Part shown: positions 1,292-28,978 of the stretch, piece after piece
Layout of the letters: each line of letters starts with the position of its first letter
Position numbering within the stretch: the first letter of the stretch is position 1
From: a virus
Strand: one strand, 5' to 3'
IMG/VR virus record: IMGVR_UViG_3300012930_000025
Location: 1 to 28,978 of that record
DNA length: 28,978 bases
Notes under the pieces: generated by a model
Seen by the model: the letters and a program-made list of their open reading frames with translations, nothing else
Told to the model about the DNA's origin: nothing
Databases searched by the model: none
Program-made: the position numbers and the translations under genes

Positions 1292-2257
1292 CTAAAGCTT
1301 CATGTAGAAGGTGCAGAGCTTGCGCGGACCGAGCGTGCGATGCGCCTGACCACCGCCCGCCGTCACGCCAGAGAAGGGATGTTGATGCCGCGCGCTTGCG
1401 CCGCCGGTGTTCGATCCGCTGGTTGACACGCCGGCCACCGAGCCCGGTGTCACGTCCGAATTATTGCCGCTTTGCGAACCCAGCGTGTAACCGTGCGTAT
1501 GATCCGGGCTGTCGTTACCGGTGGTGCCGCTGAACGTAAGCGGCGGGATTTCCGAGACGCCAAGGGCCACGCTTTGGCCGCCGCCGACCGCCCCCAGCAC
1601 AATCGGATTTCCGCCGAAGAAGGCCGCTGTCAACCGGCCGGATGGCGTGTTGCCCATGTCGTCGAGCGCACCGAGCGCGTAGCCGCGCCAGTCCGGTAAC
1701 GACAATTGCTTGTTGGCGGTCCAATCCGCCAAGGCGGTTGCGCCGCGTCCGCCGCTGACGGCGAGCGTCGGATCGATGCCCCACAGATAGAGAAACAGCG
1801 CTTGGCAATCGGCGTTGGCGCGTTCGGTCGCGCCCGAAGCCGCCGAGCCAATCGTCATATTGTTGAGCCGCACATAACCCGCAACCGCACCAAAGCCGTG
1901 GCGGAAAATCATGTTGCCGGTCTGGATCAACTGTGTGGGATCGACCGTCGAGCCACCACCGCCACCGCCAGCCGACGGCCCGATCACCAGCACGCTATCG
2001 GAAGCAAGTTGCACGACGCCGGTTTTATCCTGTAGACGAATTTTGACCGTGCCATCGGCGACGAAAAATTGCGGCACGCGTCCGGCGGCATCCAATGGCA
2101 TGGGATACGGCATCTTGATCGTCAGCCCGGTGTCCTGAAAAGCATCCTGCGGCGTCGAAACCGTGCCGGCTTGAATGATGTACAACTGGCCACCAGAAAG
2201 CGGTTTGCCGTAGACATCGAATTGCTGCGTCATCGAAAGCGGAATGGTGCCTGCCAT
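1292..2257 (-). CDS. Tail fibre with C-terminal collar-like domain
   Basis: The protein has 321 residues. Residues 1-95 (MAGTIPLSMTQQFDVYGKPL..., with 'AAGRVPQFFVADGTVKIRL') resemble the virion-binding N-terminal domain of podophage fibres. A six-glycine linker lies near residues 97-102. The C-terminal half carries features of phage tail-collar/short-fibre tips: an LPDWRGYALGALDDMG core, the His motifs DHTHGY and RHQHPF, and a final LGPRKLCTFYMKL strand. Such His clusters bind metal in T4 gp12-type tips. The start is the ATG at 2257, behind GGGGCG. A strong terminator lies between it and the ejection genes, so this gene probably begins a separately controlled fibre unit, though no promoter is obvious. 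Confidence 0.85.
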   Translation of the reverse strand: MAGTIPLSMTQQFDVYGKPLSGGQLYIIQAGTVSTPQDAFQDTGLTIKMPYPMPLDAAGRVPQFFVADGTVKIRLQDKTGVVQLASDSVLVIGPSAGGGGGGSTVDPTQLIQTGNMIFRHGFGAVAGYVRLNNMTIGSAASGATERANADCQALFLYLWGIDPTLAVSGGRGATALADWTANKQLSLPDWRGYALGALDDMGNTPSGRLTAAFFGGNPIVLGAVGGGQSVALGVSEIPPLTFSGTTGNDSPDHTHGYTLGSQSGNNSDVTPGSVAGVSTSGSNTGGASARHQHPFSGVTAGGGQAHRTLGPRKLCTFYMKL

Positions 2258-2266
2258 GTTCGCCCC

Positions 2267-2292
2267 AATAAAAAACCCGCCAAAGGCGGGTT
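2267..2292 (-). terminator. Rho-independent terminator after the ejection genes
   Basis: On the minus strand, AACCCGCC, a TTT loop and GGCGGGTT form an 8-bp GC-rich stem followed directly by a T run (TTTTTTATT). The stop codon of the 549-residue ejection protein overlaps the stem. It separates the ejection module from the fibre module. Confidence 0.9.
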
Positions 2293-3940
2293 ACTGAATT
2301 CCTGTTTGCGGGATGCGCCCGGTCTGTCGCAAGGCCTCCAGCGTCGCGCGCTTGGCTGGAATGCGCTCGCCCAAACGCTGCAACGCCGTCGCCGGTCGGG
2401 TTAGCGCGCCACCGTAATAGGCCGCATTGCCAACCACGCGCGGCGAGGAAGCCGCCAAGCCTGCGCCCGCGCCAAGCGCGGCCAATGGCGAGGCCAACGC
2501 CGCACCGGCCGCTAAGCCGCCGCTGCCGATGATCGGCGCGGCCACCCGCGCCAGCCCGCGCGGCTCCCATGTCGAGAGCGCCTGACCGGCGAGCTTTTCT
2601 CTCAAATGCGGAGCGCCGTGCTCCGCCAGCACATCGGCCAATTGGCCGCGCCGTCCATAATTGGTTTGGACGTTGTTGCGCATCACCGATTGCAGCTTGC
2701 GAATGGTGGTGTCGGGCGAAGCTTTCTCGCCGAGCGAGAAGGTCTTTTCGATTTCGCCGATCTGTTGGGAGGCCGAACGATAGTCCGCCATCATGCGATC
2801 ATAGATCGGCGCTTGCTTACGCACGGTGTCGCCAATCGCCTTGTACATTTGGTTGGCCACCACGCGATCCGGCGTGTGCGGCTGGGTGGTGTCGCGGATG
2901 TCGCTGACGCGCTTTTTCAGCGCGTCAAACCCTTCCGGTGTCCAGAACTCGGAGGCGCGCAAATTCTTCCAATCGGCGACCACCGCATTAATTTCGTTGC
3001 GGACATTGGCCGTCGAGGGCGAAAGATTTTGTCCCTTGTAGCGCGCCACCTTATCCATATCCTGCAACGCGATATCGACATCGTTCCATGACAGGATGGT
3101 CTTGTCGCGCGCCAGCGCCCGCGCGTCCTGACGATAGGTCGCACCGCGATCCTGACGCATTTGCTCCAGCGCGCCGCGTGCATCGGAAACCACTTCATCA
3201 ATCGGGATTTCGCCGCGCTTGGCCCGTTGAAAGGCTTCCGCCGCTGCGCCGCCTTCCCGGCCTGCGCTGGCGGCGGTCTGAATGGCTTCCCGGCCCACCC
3301 CGGAGGTGACGCCGGTTCCTGCCGTGGCCAGCGTGCCAGCGGCCTTGACGGGCACGGTCACGGCCTTGGCGGCAATGTTCAAGGGATCAACCGCGCGGCC
3401 TGCCATCGCGGCAATTTCGCCAACCCGGCCCGCAATACCTGGTGCCCGCGCCAGCGCCCCGCCGCCGCCCGTGAGCGGCACCGAGATATCACCAGCGACG
3501 CCAACCGGATCGCTGGCCAAAGAGCGCTTGAACTCTTCAACGCCACCGTAGCGGTTGGCAAAATGCTCGCCAATCGCTTCGGCCACCGGCACATAGGTTG
3601 TATCGATGCCCGGCAAGCCCGCCGCCTGTCCGGCCTTCTGCACGCCGCCGGCAACCGCCTTGGCCACATTGGTGGCGGTGTCGATGGGATGCAAAAACGG
3701 CTGTGCGATATCGCTGCCGAATTGAACAGCGCTACTCCCAAGGTTGCGCTTGGCCTGCAACGCGACATCCGACCACGCCATCGGCTGGTTGACCGCCTCG
3801 CCGGTTTCCAACCGCCGTTCGCCCTCGCGCTGCAAATTCGCTTCGGTCAGTTTGGGTTGGTCATCGCCCCATGACATTTCCCACGGATTTTGCTGCGGCG
3901 CTTGCTCAGTCGCGCCCCATGACATTTCCCACGGGTTCAT
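2291..3940 (-). CDS. Internal virion / DNA ejection protein (gp16 position)
   Basis: This 549-residue protein is the last of three consecutive ejection-type genes, the position of gp16 in P22. It opens with two copies of NPWEMSWG (residues 2-9 and 18-25), then has long Ala-rich amphipathic helices, a Lys/Arg/Glu-rich middle (about 230-430) and a hydrophobic Gly/Ala stretch near residues 465-500 that could insert in a membrane. I start it at the ATG at 3940, which overlaps the upstream stop (ATGA); a TTG three codons upstream is less likely. Such proteins leave the virion and help DNA cross the cell envelope. Family assignment rests on position and composition, not on a recognised motif. Confidence 0.75.
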   Translation of the reverse strand: MNPWEMSWGATEQAPQQNPWEMSWGDDQPKLTEANLQREGERRLETGEAVNQPMAWSDVALQAKRNLGSSAVQFGSDIAQPFLHPIDTATNVAKAVAGGVQKAGQAAGLPGIDTTYVPVAEAIGEHFANRYGGVEEFKRSLASDPVGVAGDISVPLTGGGGALARAPGIAGRVGEIAAMAGRAVDPLNIAAKAVTVPVKAAGTLATAGTGVTSGVGREAIQTAASAGREGGAAAEAFQRAKRGEIPIDEVVSDARGALEQMRQDRGATYRQDARALARDKTILSWNDVDIALQDMDKVARYKGQNLSPSTANVRNEINAVVADWKNLRASEFWTPEGFDALKKRVSDIRDTTQPHTPDRVVANQMYKAIGDTVRKQAPIYDRMMADYRSASQQIGEIEKTFSLGEKASPDTTIRKLQSVMRNNVQTNYGRRGQLADVLAEHGAPHLREKLAGQALSTWEPRGLARVAAPIIGSGGLAAGAALASPLAALGAGAGLAASSPRVVGNAAYYGGALTRPATALQRLGERIPAKRATLEALRQTGRIPQTGIQ

Positions 3941-11351: not shown

Positions 11352-12215
11352 TCAGCGCCGCTTGGCTGTGACTGCGGCCCGGAAAAGCTGTTCGTCGGAG
11401 GGTTCGATGACTTCGCTGTCAGTGCCACCCGCGCCGATGTTTCCGAGCGATGGAGAAGAGGCGACCGATGGCTTGACGGGACGCGCGACGTTGTTGTTCG
11501 TCACGCTCGCTTGACCTTTCGCAGCGTCAAAAACCCGCTTCTGATATTCCGGGTCTTTCAGCGCTTCTTCGAGAATGCGGATGCGGTAGGCGTTGAGATC
11601 GCCACCAATCGAGCGCAGCGTTTCACCGTCTGCATGCCAGCGCACAATCACCCCGTAGGGATCATGGCTGGCCATCGCGCGATTGTAGGCGGCCCATGCG
11701 CCTTGATCGTTGCGCGCCATGCTTTGCTCCAAGCTTGCGCGCGCCGCCGATACTTTTTCCTCACCGTGATTTCGCAGCGCCCAATCCAGCGACATGTTTT
11801 CGCGCTGGGTTTGGAAATCATTGCGAATTTGATCAAGAAACGGCTTCAACTCCTGTTGCACAAACCCTTCCGGGTTCGAGAACAGATCGAGCTTTTCAGG
11901 CTCTTTCGGCGGTGGCCGCGAGGCCGCCTCCAACCGTGCCTGCAATTCATCGGCCCGCCGCTCTGCCCTTCTGCGGGCTTCGCTTTCCTCCCGAAACCGC
12001 CCCGAGGGCACCGGGCCTTCCGGCTCCGTTTTGTCGGCGGGCTTGTCCGCTGGCGCATCGGCTGGTTTGTCAGCCGGTTTATCAGCGGGCTTGTCAGCCG
12101 GTTTCTCAGGCGGCAATTCGGGATTTTCGAATTTTTCGAGCGTCGATGTTGAGGTCGCTTCGTTGAACAACGCACTATCGTTAGGGGCATCTTGCCCCTG
12201 CGTCAGATCAGTCAT
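11352..12215 (-). CDS. Scaffolding protein
   Basis: The protein has 287 residues, is highly charged and mostly helical, and lies between portal and coat genes, the usual place for a scaffold. Residues about 39-62 are a PADK tetrapeptide repeat, matched by a 12-bp tandem repeat in the DNA. A coiled-coil-like Arg/Glu stretch follows (72-100). The C-terminal end is short and basic (AAVTAKRR), and P22-type scaffolds bind coat through a basic C-terminus. The start is the ATG at 12215 with GGAG upstream; a longer in-frame extension lacks support. It guides procapsid assembly and then leaves or is degraded. Confidence 0.82.
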   Translation of the reverse strand: MTDLTQGQDAPNDSALFNEATSTSTLEKFENPELPPEKPADKPADKPADKPADAPADKPADKTEPEGPVPSGRFREESEARRRAERRADELQARLEAASRPPPKEPEKLDLFSNPEGFVQQELKPFLDQIRNDFQTQRENMSLDWALRNHGEEKVSAARASLEQSMARNDQGAWAAYNRAMASHDPYGVIVRWHADGETLRSIGGDLNAYRIRILEEALKDPEYQKRVFDAAKGQASVTNNNVARPVKPSVASSPSLGNIGAGGTDSEVIEPSDEQLFRAAVTAKRR

Positions 12216-21339: not shown

Positions 21340-21362
21340 GATCAGCACACTTTTCTTTCTGT

Positions 21363-21398
21363 TAGGGCTTGACAGCCTATGGCGTGAGACCCTATCTA
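21363..21398 (+). promoter_or_regulatory. Cassette promoter 1
   Basis: TTGACA (21369-21374), an 18-bp spacer and TATCTA (21393-21398). The flanking inverted repeat TTAGGGCTT/GAGACCCTA is imperfect. It drives the first cassette, four genes ending at the terminator at 22445, with a short leader hairpin (AGGC/GCCT) before the CAAGGGGAA box at 21422. Confidence 0.8.
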
Positions 21399-22472: not shown

Positions 22473-22496
22473 GGCTATTTCTCAAAATAATTTTGG

Positions 22497-22534
22497 TATA
22501 GGGCTTGACGCCATAGGATATAAAGCCCTATAAC
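22497..22534 (+). promoter_or_regulatory. Cassette promoter 2 with perfect inverted repeat
   Basis: TTGACG (22505-22510), 18-bp spacer, TATAAC (22529-22534). TATAGGGCTT (22497-22506) and AAGCCCTATA (22523-22532) are perfect 10-bp inverted arms 16 bp apart, covering both promoter boxes. This is the best copy of the shared operator-promoter. It drives the ardC-like gene. Confidence 0.88.
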
Positions 22535-23488: not shown

Positions 23489-23518
23489 GCCCAAAATTTA
23501 TTTCAGAAATGTTTGCTG

Positions 23519-23554
23519 TAGGGCTTGACGCCCTCGGACATAAAGCCCTATGTT
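23519..23554 (+). promoter_or_regulatory. Cassette promoter 3
   Basis: TTGACG (23525-23530), 18-bp spacer, TATGTT (23549-23554), with 8-bp inverted arms TAGGGCTT/AAGCCCTA. The leader carries the perfect 6-bp hairpin CAACGC/GCGTTG (23563-23580) four bases before the box at 23585. Confidence 0.85.
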
Positions 23555-24389: not shown

Positions 24390-24512
24390 ATGCGTTATTT
24401 TTGCAAAGTTGATGTCAGCTATGGCGGGAAAATACGCGCATCAGCGGGCTCGCCAGCGCGTCAAGCGATTTCTTTGCCTGTTCACTGCGGAATTCCGCAC
24501 CATAGGGCTTGA
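24390..24512 (+). CDS. Possible small protein (40 aa)
   Basis: MRYFCKVDVSYGGKIRASAG, then SPARQAISLPVHCGIPHHRA. AGGAAG stands nine bases upstream, and the stop lies within the -35 box of the following promoter. The second duplicate unit has a matching but divergent frame beginning MRYF from GTG. Because the two frames agree only in the first four residues, coding is uncertain; the conserved part may be regulatory. Confidence 0.35.
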   Translation: MRYFCKVDVSYGGKIRASAGSPARQAISLPVHCGIPHHRA

Positions 24513-24538
24513 CGCCCGAGGGCTTTACGGCCTTGGAC
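24504..24538 (+). promoter_or_regulatory. Degenerate copy of the cassette promoter
   Basis: AGGGCTTGACG is intact (TTGACG 24509-24514) but the -10 position reads TTGGAC and the right arm of the inverted repeat is lost. No ribosome box or clear gene follows. It is probably a decayed or weak copy. Confidence 0.6.
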
Positions 24539-24573: not shown

Positions 24574-24712
24574 GATCCATCGCAGCATAAAACTAGCGTC
24601 TATTGGGAAGCCCGCTGGTGCGTTATTTTTACAATTCCGACCCTAACCCAGTGAAAAAATTGCGCCTCTCCGTGAGGCTGCCAGCGTGTCAATCGAAAAG
24701 ATTTGTTATACC

Positions 24713-24747
24713 GGGCTTGACACCATAGGGCGTAAAGCCCCTATGTG
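24713..24747 (+). promoter_or_regulatory. Cassette promoter 5
   Basis: TTGACA (24717-24722) followed after 18 bp by CTATGT, or after 19 bp by TATGTG. Arms are GGGCTT/AAGCCC. The leader has a perfect 6-bp hairpin CGGCGC/GCGCCG (24753-24770) two bases before the CAAGGGGAA box at 24773. Confidence 0.82.
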
Positions 24748-25561: not shown

Positions 25562-25593
25562 AAGCCCGGCAGAAATGCCGGGCTTTTTCTTTT
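25562..25593 (+). terminator. Terminator of cassette 6
   Basis: AAGCCCGGCA, GAAA tetraloop, TGCCGGGCTT, then TTTCTTTT. A 10-bp stem, near-identical to the terminator at 24316. Promoter 6 begins five bases later. Confidence 0.93.
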
Positions 25594-25597
25594 CGGC

Positions 25598-25633
25598 TAG
25601 GGCTTGACACGCTAGGGCTTTATGTCCTAATCC
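25598..25633 (+). promoter_or_regulatory. Cassette promoter 6
   Basis: TTGACA (25604-25609), 18-bp spacer, TAATCC (25628-25633). TAGGGCTT occurs twice as a direct repeat within the element, and the right inverted arm is partial (TGTCCTA). No leader hairpin is visible here. The box is at 25648-25656. It drives the recombinase operon. Confidence 0.8.
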
Positions 25634-26720: not shown

Positions 26721-26827
26721 CAATTTTTGTTTGCATAGAATGTCAATTCGAGGGAAACGTCGATATTATTTGTGCGTTCACAAATGAGGACCGCGCCATC
26801 AAATCGAAATGGGATTTGAAGCCATGA
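26717..26827 (+). CDS. Miniprotein bounded by direct repeats (36 aa)
   Basis: [20 protein letters not shown] followed by FTNEDRAIKSKWDLKP. One CxxC-like motif (CIEC) occurs near the start, with another Cys at 19. Its ends are two copies of a 16-bp repeat that each supply a stop-start overlap (CCATGA), so the ORF looks inserted or duplicated as a unit. Codon use is more AT-rich than neighbouring genes. The function is unknown. Confidence 0.6.
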   Translation: MTIFVCIECQFEGNVDIICAFTNEDRAIKSKWDLKP

Positions 26828-26937
26828 TCGTCGCCATCGTCATCAGCGCTTTTGTCGCATTGTGGGTTGTCGAATGGTGCCGTCAGCGCGAGCTAGACCG
26901 CGAGATCGAGGCATGGAAGCGACGTTTCGAGGATTGA
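26824..26937 (+). CDS. One-helix membrane miniprotein (37 aa)
   Basis: MIVAIVISAFVALWVVEWCR, then QRELDREIEAWKRRFED. An N-terminal transmembrane helix followed by a charged cytoplasmic helix, like spanin-free phage membrane peptides of unknown function. It is coupled to the preceding miniprotein by ATGA and is the last gene before the cassette 7 terminator. Confidence 0.62.
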   Translation: MIVAIVISAFVALWVVEWCRQRELDREIEAWKRRFED

Positions 26938-26946
26938 AAATGTCAA

Positions 26947-26979
26947 AGGCCCCGCAGTGCAAACTACGGGGCCTCTTTC
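26947..26979 (+). terminator. Terminator of cassette 7
   Basis: AGGCCCCG pairs with CGGGGCCT; the interior AGT/ACT pairs and a GCAA tetraloop complete the hairpin. The T-rich tail is weaker (CTTTCATCTTT) than in the other cassettes. Confidence 0.82.
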
Positions 26980-27016
26980 ATCTTTCCGGCCCGCTCGCGT
27001 GGCGCTGGCCATGGCG

Positions 27017-27025
27017 CAAGGGGAA
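27017..27025 (+). promoter_or_regulatory. Orphan CAAGGGGAA box
   Basis: A perfect box lies after the last cassette terminator. A TTG follows only one base later and opens a 58-codon frame (27027-27203) that runs antisense into the gene at 27103. The spacing is too short for translation as in the other boxes, and no shared promoter precedes it. It is probably a relic of a lost cassette. Confidence 0.5.
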
Positions 27026-27102
27026 CTTGATCCACAGGGCTTCCGGCGAGCGGCGGGAAGATAGCGAAACCTTGTGCAAAATCGCCCCTCTGTCAATCGT
27101 GC

Positions 27103-27621
27103 TCACGCCCCCGCGCGCAAGCTTTCCCAAAATATTCCGAGCCGGTGGCCGGCATCCGAGAGGATTTCCGCCGCCCGCGACCGCCCCCGGTAGGGCGATC
27201 TGAAGCCGAGCGCCTCCCCGGTTTCGGTTAAGCCCCGCCCAAAGCACGCTACTTGATCGGCGACGAATGACGGGCGGAACCCTATTTCGGTTTTCGCCCG
27301 GTAGTACAATCGCTTATGATCTAATTGCGCTTCGCTTCGCGCCAGCCCGGACATTTGCGCGGGATCGAACGCATAAATTCGGTTGAGATCAACGCTGCCC
27401 AAGGGGGCCTGTAAGCCGCCAGCGACCCAGTGGAGCGCGTAGCGCCTAAGCGCCGAGTATTCCATCACTGATATGATTTGACGCATCCACGCCTTCCCTA
27501 GCGCGTCATCGAGCATGGTAATTCGGCGCGTCGAGCGCGAGCGGCCAGCGACCGTGAAAAACTGTTCGGCTTTTTTGAGACGTTCCGCTGTGGGTCCGGC
27601 GTCATCGACGGGGAGTTGCAT
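27103..27621 (-). CDS. Protein of unknown function (172 aa)
   Basis: MQLPVDDAGPTAERLKKAEQ, a basic stretch (RSRSTRRITMLDDALGKAWM), then a helical middle (VMEYSALRRYALHWVAGGLQ) and a C-terminus with LGFRSPYRGRSRAAEILSDA. It may contain a helix-turn-helix-like fold, but I cannot point to one confidently. Its start is about 190 bp from the end of the DUF1376 gene, across the ATGCAA repeat patch, which could be its operator. A regulatory or replication-associated role is possible from this position. Confidence 0.68.
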   Translation of the reverse strand: MQLPVDDAGPTAERLKKAEQFFTVAGRSRSTRRITMLDDALGKAWMRQIISVMEYSALRRYALHWVAGGLQAPLGSVDLNRIYAFDPAQMSGLARSEAQLDHKRLYYRAKTEIGFRPSFVADQVACFGRGLTETGEALGFRSPYRGRSRAAEILSDAGHRLGIFWESLRAGA

Positions 27622-27814
27622 CAGCGACTTCCGCTTGAGGATGCGGCAACGCTACTGCCGAGTTCTCCACATTGGCAAGCCTCTTGCTACGCGCAGCAAC
27701 AGAGAAGGTAGAAGTTATATCTTTCTTATTTTAGTAGCATTGCACAAGCCTATGCAAAATCGATGCAAACGGTATGCAACAGCAATGCATATGCATCGTA
27801 TCTGTTTAGGATTT
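27622..27814. other. AT-rich non-coding gap
   Basis: This 193-bp gap is clearly richer in A and T than the flanking genes. It contains the ATGCAA repeat series and a TTATTTTAGTAG stretch. No small gene is convincing. It could hold a promoter for the gene at 27621 or an origin-like element. Confidence 0.5.
27738..27796. repeat. ATGCAA repeat series with 11-bp spacing
   Basis: ATGCAA begins at 27752, 27763 and 27774, and ATGCAT at 27785 and 27791, with a related TTGCAC at 27740-27745. Four members are exactly 11 bp apart, so they face the same side of the helix. This is typical of iterons or of cooperative operator sites. Confidence 0.7.
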
Positions 27815-28159
27815 TCAATGCTTTAGGCCGTTGATCCGTGCCCATCTTTTATTCGCAGCAAGCGCACGTTTCTCTCTCAAATTTTGCACGTTTATGCGCG
27901 TATCGGTTAGGCGCTTTTGTGAGATCGAACCGCCTGCAATTGTCATCGGCCGCATGACCTTTGCTTTGATTTTGCGCCAGCGCGGTAATGTCACGCCGCT
28001 GATCCGCGCCAGTTCCCTATCGTCATCAATCAATCGTCCGCCCTGCAACCACATCGTGAACAACAAACGACAATAAACTCCAAATTCTTCCGCCGACATA
28101 TGCCATGTGTCAGCAAGCAAAACTTGCGGCCTGAGTGGCAGGATCGGAAATTCTGCCAT
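27815..28159 (-). CDS. DUF1376-type (YdaU-like) protein
   Basis: The protein has 114 residues. LRPQVLLADTWHMSAEEFGV, then YCRLLFTMWLQGGRLIDDDR and ELARISGVTLPRWRKIKAKV match the DUF1376 domain, a winged-helix-like module found in phage replication-initiation regions (YdaU type), usually followed by a longer C-terminus. Here the protein ends soon after (REKRALAANKRWARINGLKH), so it is a short version. It follows the nuclease gene by 7 bp with GAGGCG as the ribosome site. The role in DNA replication is an inference from family context. Confidence 0.82.
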   Translation of the reverse strand: MAEFPILPLRPQVLLADTWHMSAEEFGVYCRLLFTMWLQGGRLIDDDRELARISGVTLPRWRKIKAKVMRPMTIAGGSISQKRLTDTRINVQNLREKRALAANKRWARINGLKH

Positions 28160-28166
28160 GGCGGCG

Positions 28167-28706
28167 CTACGCCTCCCAGAAAGCGACTTTGACCTTCAAT
28201 GCGCAAATGTCTGCATATAAAAAGATGTCCGAGCCAGTGAACCGAAATACAGCTAGACCAGCCCGCAACATTTTTCTGTCGCGTCGGCGATCCTTTGCAA
28301 TCTGATCTTTAGAACTATGATATGGAGCCCCATCACATTCGACGACTGCGATTTTTCCGTTTGGTTTTCTGACTATCCAATCGGCGCGGTATCGTTCCCA
28401 TTTCCATCCCGGAATGATTTCACATTCGTTCGCAAAAATTTCGTTCGCAAAAATTTCATAAAGCGCGACGCCCATTTGCGTTTCAATGGGGCTTTCGGTG
28501 AGTTTATCGATGCTTTTGGTAAACTTTGACGTGGCAACTGCAACTCTTCTGTCAGCGCACGCCCTTTGTGCTTTTGCTACAGCAAGCGCTCTTTCAAGTT
28601 CAAGACGGCGCGCTTTTACAATGTCCGGCCACACTCGCGAAGCAATCACTTGACCAATGGTCACCGGCCTGAATTCGCCTTCGACTTTTGCATCAGGAAA
28701 AATCAT
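28167..28706 (-). CDS. DUF559/Vsr-like nuclease
   Basis: The protein has 179 residues. The C-terminal 110 residues look like the restriction-endonuclease-like fold of DUF559/very-short-patch-repair proteins: ESPIE (71-75), WERYRADWIV with Asp109, AVVECDGAPYHSSKDQIAKD with the E-x-D pair at 123/125 and His130, then RRRDRKMLRAGLAVFRFTGS. These supply the metal-binding acidic residues of a PD-(D/E)xK nuclease. A 15-bp tandem duplication in the DNA creates EIFANEIFANE (84-94) just before the core. The start overlaps the upstream stop by ATGA. Confidence 0.82.
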   Translation of the reverse strand: MIFPDAKVEGEFRPVTIGQVIASRVWPDIVKARRLELERALAVAKAQRACADRRVAVATSKFTKSIDKLTESPIETQMGVALYEIFANEIFANECEIIPGWKWERYRADWIVRKPNGKIAVVECDGAPYHSSKDQIAKDRRRDRKMLRAGLAVFRFTGSDIFLYADICALKVKVAFWEA

Positions 28707-28978
28707 AGTTGATCGCCATTATCCACAATCCGCAGCCAGCTATATTTCCTGATTTTGCTTTGCCGCTTGGAGCTATCGAGAATGCTGTGCCGGATGATCA
28801 GGGTTTTGGCGGCCAGCCCATCCAACACCGGCTGCGGATTGCCATCGACTTGGGCAAGCTCCACATCGTGATCTGATCCATACTCACGGCCCCAGATCGA
28901 ATAGCGCCTCATGGCCTTGGCTCTTTTTCTTGAAGCCAGCGCTCCGCGATTGGCTTTGGCTCTTTTTCTTGAAGCCAG
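28703..28978 (-). CDS. Partial protein with 13-residue basic repeat, 5' end outside
   Basis: The frame runs from the right edge to a stop at 28703. An ATG at 28912 would give a 69-residue protein, but the frame stays open to the edge and the upstream part encodes LASRKRAKANRGA followed by LASRKRAKA, so the real gene probably starts beyond the window. The visible C-terminus has VELAQVDGNPQPVLDGLAAK and SSKRQSKIRKYSWLRIVDNG. No family is recognised. It is coupled by ATGA to the nuclease gene. Confidence 0.6.
   Translation of the reverse strand: MASRKRAKANRGALASRKRAKAMRRYSIWGREYGSDHDVELAQVDGNPQPVLDGLAAKTLIIRHSILDSSKRQSKIRKYSWLRIVDNGDQL
28917..28978. repeat. 23-bp repeat at 39-bp period reaching the window edge
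   Basis: Identical 23-bp copies at 28917-28939 and 28956-28978, beginning TTGGCTC and ending GAAGCCAG, form part of a 39-bp tandem unit (13 codons). The second copy ends exactly at the last base, so more units may lie beyond, or the assembly may have broken here because of the repeat. Confidence 0.85.

Follow-up and report, generated by a model that had tools for sequence, protein, structure and literature searches.

Helically phased short repeats next to a phage DUF1376 gene as the probable iterons of a replication origin

What is the function of four copies of a short repeat, set 11 bp apart, between two genes of a phage genome? The repeats lie in a stretch of viral DNA of 28,978 nucleotides (IMG/VR record IMGVR_UViG_3300012930_000025), which we call the window. 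On one side is a gene of the DUF1376 family and on the other a gene encoding a protein of 172 residues. The original prediction offered two readings, a phage replication origin or an operator for the gene starting at 27621. The layout and the phasing in company with DUF1376 favour the former and disfavour the latter. From sequence comparison we give a probability of roughly 0.7 to the reading that the repeats are iterons of a replication origin belonging to the adjacent DUF1376 gene. Computation places the array at a usual position beside DUF1376 across divergent phages, with helical phasing and an AT-rich neighbour, and associates it more closely with DUF1376 than with the gene for the 172-residue protein.

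Table 1. Coordinates of the features discussed, numbered along the window
Feature	Position	Strand	Basis or remark
Gene for 172-residue protein, frequent downstream neighbour of DUF1376	27103..27621	-	ORF and relatives
Candidate promoter-like hexamers TTGCCA and TAGCGT, 18 bp apart	27649..27678	-	Ahead of the 172-residue gene; by eye
AT-rich stretch, candidate unwinding element	27700..27739	.	40 bp, 70% AT
AACTTCTACCTT block	27705..27716	-	Within the AT-rich stretch; 0-2 mismatches in some relatives
Degenerate copy TTGCAC	27740..27745	+	12 bp ahead of the first ATGCAA; by eye
Repeat copy ATGCAA	27752..27757	+	TTGCAT on the DUF1376 coding strand
Repeat copy ATGCAA	27763..27768	+	11 bp after previous copy
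Repeat copy ATGCAA	27774..27779	+	11 bp after previous copy
Repeat copy ATGCAT, palindromic	27785..27790	+	11 bp after previous copy
Fifth copy, ATGCAT, abutting the fourth	27791..27796	+	Absent from the original prediction
DUF1376 gene, 114 residues, predicted winged helix, proposed initiator	27815..28159	-	Pfam, PHROGs, AlphaFold
40-nt element, six copies	21356-21395, 22492-22531, 23512-23551, 24496-24535, 24704-24743, 25591-25630		

The four ATGCAA/T copies do indeed follow one another at exact 11-bp steps (Table 1). ATGCAW occurs 27 times in the whole window, below the chance mean of 47.15, so that it is the clustering alone that is remarkable. Four identical 5-mers in phase form the sole such run in the window at periods of 7–15; among 4-mers there is another run of four, with a period of 12, at 12070. 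When the whole window was shuffled 200 times with its dinucleotides preserved, the longest 5-mer run (periods 8–14) was three in 55 shuffles and two in 145, and a run of four was reached in none of 5000 shuffles of the 193-base gap. The array begins 18 bp beyond the DUF1376 stop and is noncoding. It spans about +363 to +419 from the DUF1376 start, in agreement with the distance of about +350 looked for in a lambda-type layout. Along the coding strand DUF1376 is followed by the array, then by the AT-rich 40 bp, the promoter-like hexamers and finally the 172-residue gene.

The gap had been described as AT-rich, and this is true of a part of it. The whole (27622–27814) is just 54% AT, whereas the stretch listed in Table 1 reaches 70%. 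That stretch lies on the side of the array away from DUF1376 and adjoins the repeats as a lambda-type origin requires. In the 43 DUF1376 loci described below, the AACTWCTWCCTT block (at most two mismatches) occurs at 1.09 per kb between +300 and +620 of DUF1376 and at 0.04 per kb elsewhere, the motif having been chosen by eye from the same loci in which it was later counted. The 15 sites are spread over 15 of the 43 loci, and 11 of these loci also have the 172-residue gene. A stretch resembling the hexamer region is also present upstream of relatives.

The window contains other repeats. A 40-nt element (TAGGGCTTGAC...AAAGCCCTA) is present in six copies that are 60–100% alike, with one similar site in each of the relatives L011 and L014. 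By eye it resembles a promoter −35 element within an inverted repeat, and a family of phage operators or promoters is possible. The record ends in a near-perfect 28-nt direct repeat (28912–28939 and 28951–28978), which may be an effect of assembly. The site of the array is itself at the end of a possibly incomplete record, and GC skew is therefore uninformative on the origin.

The gene beside the repeats had been assigned to DUF1376, correctly so, since PF07120 matches with E=1.6e-13 and 51.3 bits (curated cut-off 30.1). At E≤0.1 Pfam lists DUF1376 alone and no plasmid Rep family, and the protein matches PHROG families called primosomal protein. The AlphaFold model (mean pLDDT 86.4) shows a winged helix, followed at the C terminus by a long helix. 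Searching with this model, Foldseek gave no match at E≤0.001 and RepA-type matches at E about 0.1; in a structure comparison eight of 1000 chains reached Z≥5 and none Z≥8. The weak matches include proteins titled initiator or Rep, among many winged-helix proteins. They also include, among many others, 4pql, 5kbj, 4pt7 and 4pta (Z 4.7–5.2), which we take to be N-terminal domains of plasmid RepA. From ORF lengths, the 114-residue protein lacks a C-terminal part that is found in longer relatives. DUF1376 adjoins an annotated helicase loader, a DnaC-like or DnaA-like protein or a helicase in seven of 13 named regions, and one E. coli phage record annotates its DUF1376 copy as replication protein O. 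Adjacent to the DUF1376 gene of the window, on the same strand, is a gene for an MTES_1575-type endonuclease-like protein (28167–28706, E=1e-12).

The gene starting at 27621 had been called unknown, and our searches agree: neither Pfam nor PHROGs (E≤0.1) nor NCBIfam (E≤0.01) gives a match to it. The model of its product has a mean pLDDT of 57.5, too low for interpretation. The protein is encoded at 60–80% identity in fourteen IMG/VR loci. A DUF1376 gene lies upstream in 12 of these 14, and also in L016. In the 11 of those 12 that were aligned (L006 was left out) DUF1376 drops to 18–34% identity to that of the window, while the 172-residue protein keeps its 60–80%; the DUF1376 protein of L016 is 67% identical. 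The short repeats upstream of 172-residue relatives differ, being for example of GAAGCAAA types in L003 and L008 and of GCAATTGCG types in L007. At L104 and L105, which encode a distant 172-residue relative, no DUF1376 was detected; the upstream frame is DnaA-like by eye, and is perhaps another type of initiator in the same slot.

The DUF1376 subtype of the window is found in fourteen loci (L016–L020, L022, L023, L025, L027–L029, L031, L033 and L035; 59–79% over the domain), which hold 3–10 TGCA in the 305 bases past the domain against 0.9–2.4 expected. No 172-residue homologue was found in the locus DNA examined for nine of them. TGCA arrays also accompany two distant DUF1376 subtypes (L052, L055), which counts against the origin reading. 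The array is inside the DUF1376 gene in several longer relatives; in L036 and Pkon1 the repeats are translated within the longer protein. In L006 an insert of about 1.1 kb (about 2020–3131), transposase-like by eye and with 8 bp shared by both ends, lies between the array and the 172-residue gene. It cuts off the proposed origin from the AT-rich DNA at its side; except for the insert, L006 is almost the same there as L007. Comparison of 26800–28978 with named phages gave no DNA similarity, and in pattern scans of genome contigs 46 and 121 stretches matched with no relative confirmed.

To which gene does the array belong? If the repeats were an operator, a regulator bound to them would control the 172-residue gene. 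We consider this unlikely. The array does lie upstream of that gene, with the promoter-like hexamers recognized by eye between them. Where other DNA separates DUF1376 from the 172-residue gene (L002/L062, L004/L064 and L071), the array adjoins the 172-residue gene and not DUF1376 in L071, and weakly so in L064, as an operator would; L062 has no clear array beside the 172-residue gene. A second TGCA cluster (e.g. GATGCACATGCATTCGCA) is found past the AT-rich stretch in L016, L020, L022, L023 and L025, about 60–120 bp beyond the first array and nearer the start of the 172-residue gene, which would also suit an operator. Against this, no 172-residue homologue was found in the locus DNA of 26 of the 43 DUF1376 loci, and many of these carry arrays nonetheless.

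The trees also speak against control of the 172-residue gene. We compared 17 loci that have both genes, the TGCA type being defined by at least five TGCA where the other loci have 0–3. On the DUF1376 tree the type requires one change (97/100). On the 172-residue tree it requires three, of which at least two are forced by strong branches, and there the window falls within a strongly supported set of eight whose other seven members are non-TGCA. L007 and L008 are sisters on the 172-residue tree (97/95), yet unlike in DUF1376 and in repeats, so that the repeats change while the 172-residue protein stays alike. Judged from these trees, the repeat type tracks the DUF1376 subtype and not the 172-residue protein. 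It could do so merely as neighbouring DNA; because adjacent DNA is inherited together, trees alone are no proof of binding. The recurring place and the phasing, across unrelated repeat sequences, are the stronger argument.

A wider set, apart from the 43 loci, bears on the same question. Of its 46 loci, 23 have DUF1376 near (the window was added to these), 10 are without it and three have it far away. Dropped were L072–L074, L083 and L099 for short upstream DNA, the near copies L087, L095, L098 and L104, and also L066. The original prediction held that loss of the repeats from relatives keeping both flanking genes would refute it. In fact 22 of the 24 loci with DUF1376 within 700 bp retain at least one 11- or 12-bp pair, which from the shuffle rate we estimate to occur by chance in about half of loci; 18 of the 24 have a 12-bp pair. 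What is not retained is the exact ATGCAA sequence, where DUF1376 is of another subtype. The ten loci with the 172-residue gene in which no DUF1376 was detected in at least 1.4 kb upstream have few phased repeats, which counts against an operator of that gene: a pair is present in three, a single 11-bp one each, and none at 12 bp. One-sided rank tests of DUF1376 near versus absent gave p=0.014 (11 bp), 0.00016 (12 bp) and 0.0084 (6-mer score). A point against the origin reading is that in L011/L072 an array is present and DUF1376 was not found in its 511 upstream bases; the same holds for L073 over 365 upstream bases.

A combination of the two functions seems to us less likely still. In that case the DUF1376 protein, bound to the iterons of an origin, would in addition modulate how the 172-residue gene is transcribed. 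The second TGCA cluster past the AT-rich stretch in five relatives would fit such a dual element, but no second cluster is seen in the window.

How widespread is the arrangement? Its recurrence across the DUF1376 family was no part of the original prediction. We collected 43 DUF1376 loci, with obvious duplicates removed, that are not phylogenetically independent. They include named phages of Rhizobium, Bradyrhizobium, Acetobacter, Azospirillum, Paracoccus, Pseudomonas, Microcystis and Leptolyngbya, and also ydaU of E. coli K-12. Left out were repeat entries for contigs already present (L021, L024, L030, L034, L038–L041), near copies (L026, L032, L045, L046, L048, L056; L047, which is similar to L044, was kept), L006 with its insert between array and AT-rich DNA, and L011 and L012, where DUF1376 was not found. 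For the repeat profile, 6-mers recurring within an 80-bp window were counted without reference to any motif. Repeat density is highest 320–440 bp from the DUF1376 start, with a mean of 7.61 in the +360 bin against about 1.9 elsewhere. This place is strictly the best of its locus in 18 of the 43 (1.3 expected) and is not so in 25, and 25.3% of all control blocks reach the score of the target in their own locus. Eleven loci (L004, L005, L010, L015, L017, L019, L020, L022, L027, L042 and L051) score at the target no higher than the mean of their own controls; among these, L017, L019, L020, L022 and L027 still hold 4–6 TGCA there against 0.9–2.4 expected. Mean AT across the 43 loci is highest at +350 to +449.

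Spacing was counted in the same loci. At 11 bp there are 107 pairs of identical 5-mers, spread over 27 of the 43 loci, where shuffles give 11.4 and control blocks 8.0; at 12 bp there are 117, against 11.1 and 25.2, respectively. Thus both spacings are about tenfold over the shuffles, and spacings of 6, 22, 23 and 24 bp are likewise raised. In the noncoding 160 bases past the stop of 24 short genes there are 33 pairs at 11 bp where shuffles give 3.5 (at most 12 in any of 300); 19 long DUF1376 genes contain 68, against 3.9 in shuffles (at most 15). Because the phasing is present both in noncoding DNA past short genes and inside long ones, protein coding alone does not explain it. As controls, the 210 bases upstream of DUF1376 show no excess (5 against 9.1), and the first 210 bases of the DUF1376 genes have 33, compared with 9.6 in shuffles and at most 21 in any of the 300, an excess that we take as shared ancestry. 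It is very improbable that the arrays are due to chance, or are low-complexity repeats arising from coding bias at the 3′ end of DUF1376: by eye, linkers rich in N, A and Q occur there in some longer relatives, but the window array is noncoding, short genes have their arrays past the stop, 11 bp is no codon multiple and shuffles fail to reproduce the array. DnaA boxes were rejected as a general part of the putative origins, a scan with the DnaA box consensus finding four sites in only three of the 43 loci (L005, L031, L033); their density is 0.171 per kb at the target and 0.041 elsewhere.

How might an origin of this kind work? Because of the 11-bp step, the DUF1376 protein would bind with one unit per helical turn, its winged helix contacting successive repeats along one face of the DNA. 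The assembly would then strain and open the adjoining 40 bp of AT-rich DNA, and a host helicase could be loaded onto the opened strand. We infer that the helicase comes from the host because neither PF01695 nor PF03796, profiles covering the DnaB and DnaC families, has a match in 14 possibly fragmentary records, the window included. The C-terminal part of lambda O contacts the loader. The 114-residue protein has no counterpart of that part, which counts against reading the repeats as an origin.

A close parallel is with lambda, where O binds repeats in its own gene, next to about 40 bp of AT-rich DNA, and opening admits the helicase (PMC5043065, PMC7466680). Among lambdoid phages, iteron origins inside the initiator gene are known (PMC7466680). 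When the same count was applied to the lambda O region its maximum was at +345, the annotated iterons lying at about +348 to +432. The window shares with lambda the distance of about 350 bp between initiator start and array, and the AT-rich DNA, some 40 bp long, that comes next. There are several differences. The annotated iterons of lambda are of 18 bp (19-bp inverted repeats in PMC5043065), whereas the copies here are short and 11 bp apart; the lambda array is inside the O gene, whereas the window protein ends before its array; and no loader was found here in 14 possibly fragmentary records. In the Pfam (E≤0.1) and PHROG listings the window protein is recognized as DUF1376 or primosomal, not as a homologue of O.

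YdaU, encoded next to YdaV in the Rac prophage of E. coli K-12, is likewise a DUF1376 protein, and has TGTTCAAAC-type repeats that score best in the window at +335, counted from where the domain starts. In contrast to the phage protein studied here it is longer, its array is inside the gene and the repeat sequence is another. An active origin, oriJ, is present in the Rac prophage (PMC3945230); the portions of the literature that our search reached gave no exact position for it. Iteron plasmids also have helix-phased repeats and AT-rich DNA in the origin (PMC5043065), features shared by the window; the RepA-type fold match is weak. However, plasmid iterons are about 20 bp (PMC2647930, on a plasmid-like island), so that the repeats here are much shorter, and Pfam detects no plasmid Rep family.

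In the parts of papers covered by the literature search, including PMC5795418, nothing was found that ties DUF1376 to a replication origin. A role in replication was nevertheless already suspected, since PHROGs use the name primosomal protein for some of the family and an E. coli phage record that of replication protein O. Iteron origins inside phage initiator genes are already known; what would be new is that DUF1376 proteins own iteron origins. A broader view, which we hold tentatively and at somewhat less than even odds, is that DUF1376 proteins are widespread origin-binding initiators, from YdaU of Rac in E. coli to cyanophages. Each would have iterons of its own at much the same distance, in an 11/12-bp layout that persists while the repeat sequence diversifies. 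In this phage group the initiator would have been reduced to one winged-helix domain, which would need nothing but the host machinery to start replication.

If the repeats are indeed iterons, DUF1376, a domain of unknown function, gains a concrete job that can be tested, and a single gene would by its position mark the origin in many phage and prophage genomes. An initiator of one domain, with its origin just past the stop codon, would make a very simple replication system of the lambda kind, and the swapped repeat types would lend themselves to the study of a recognition code.
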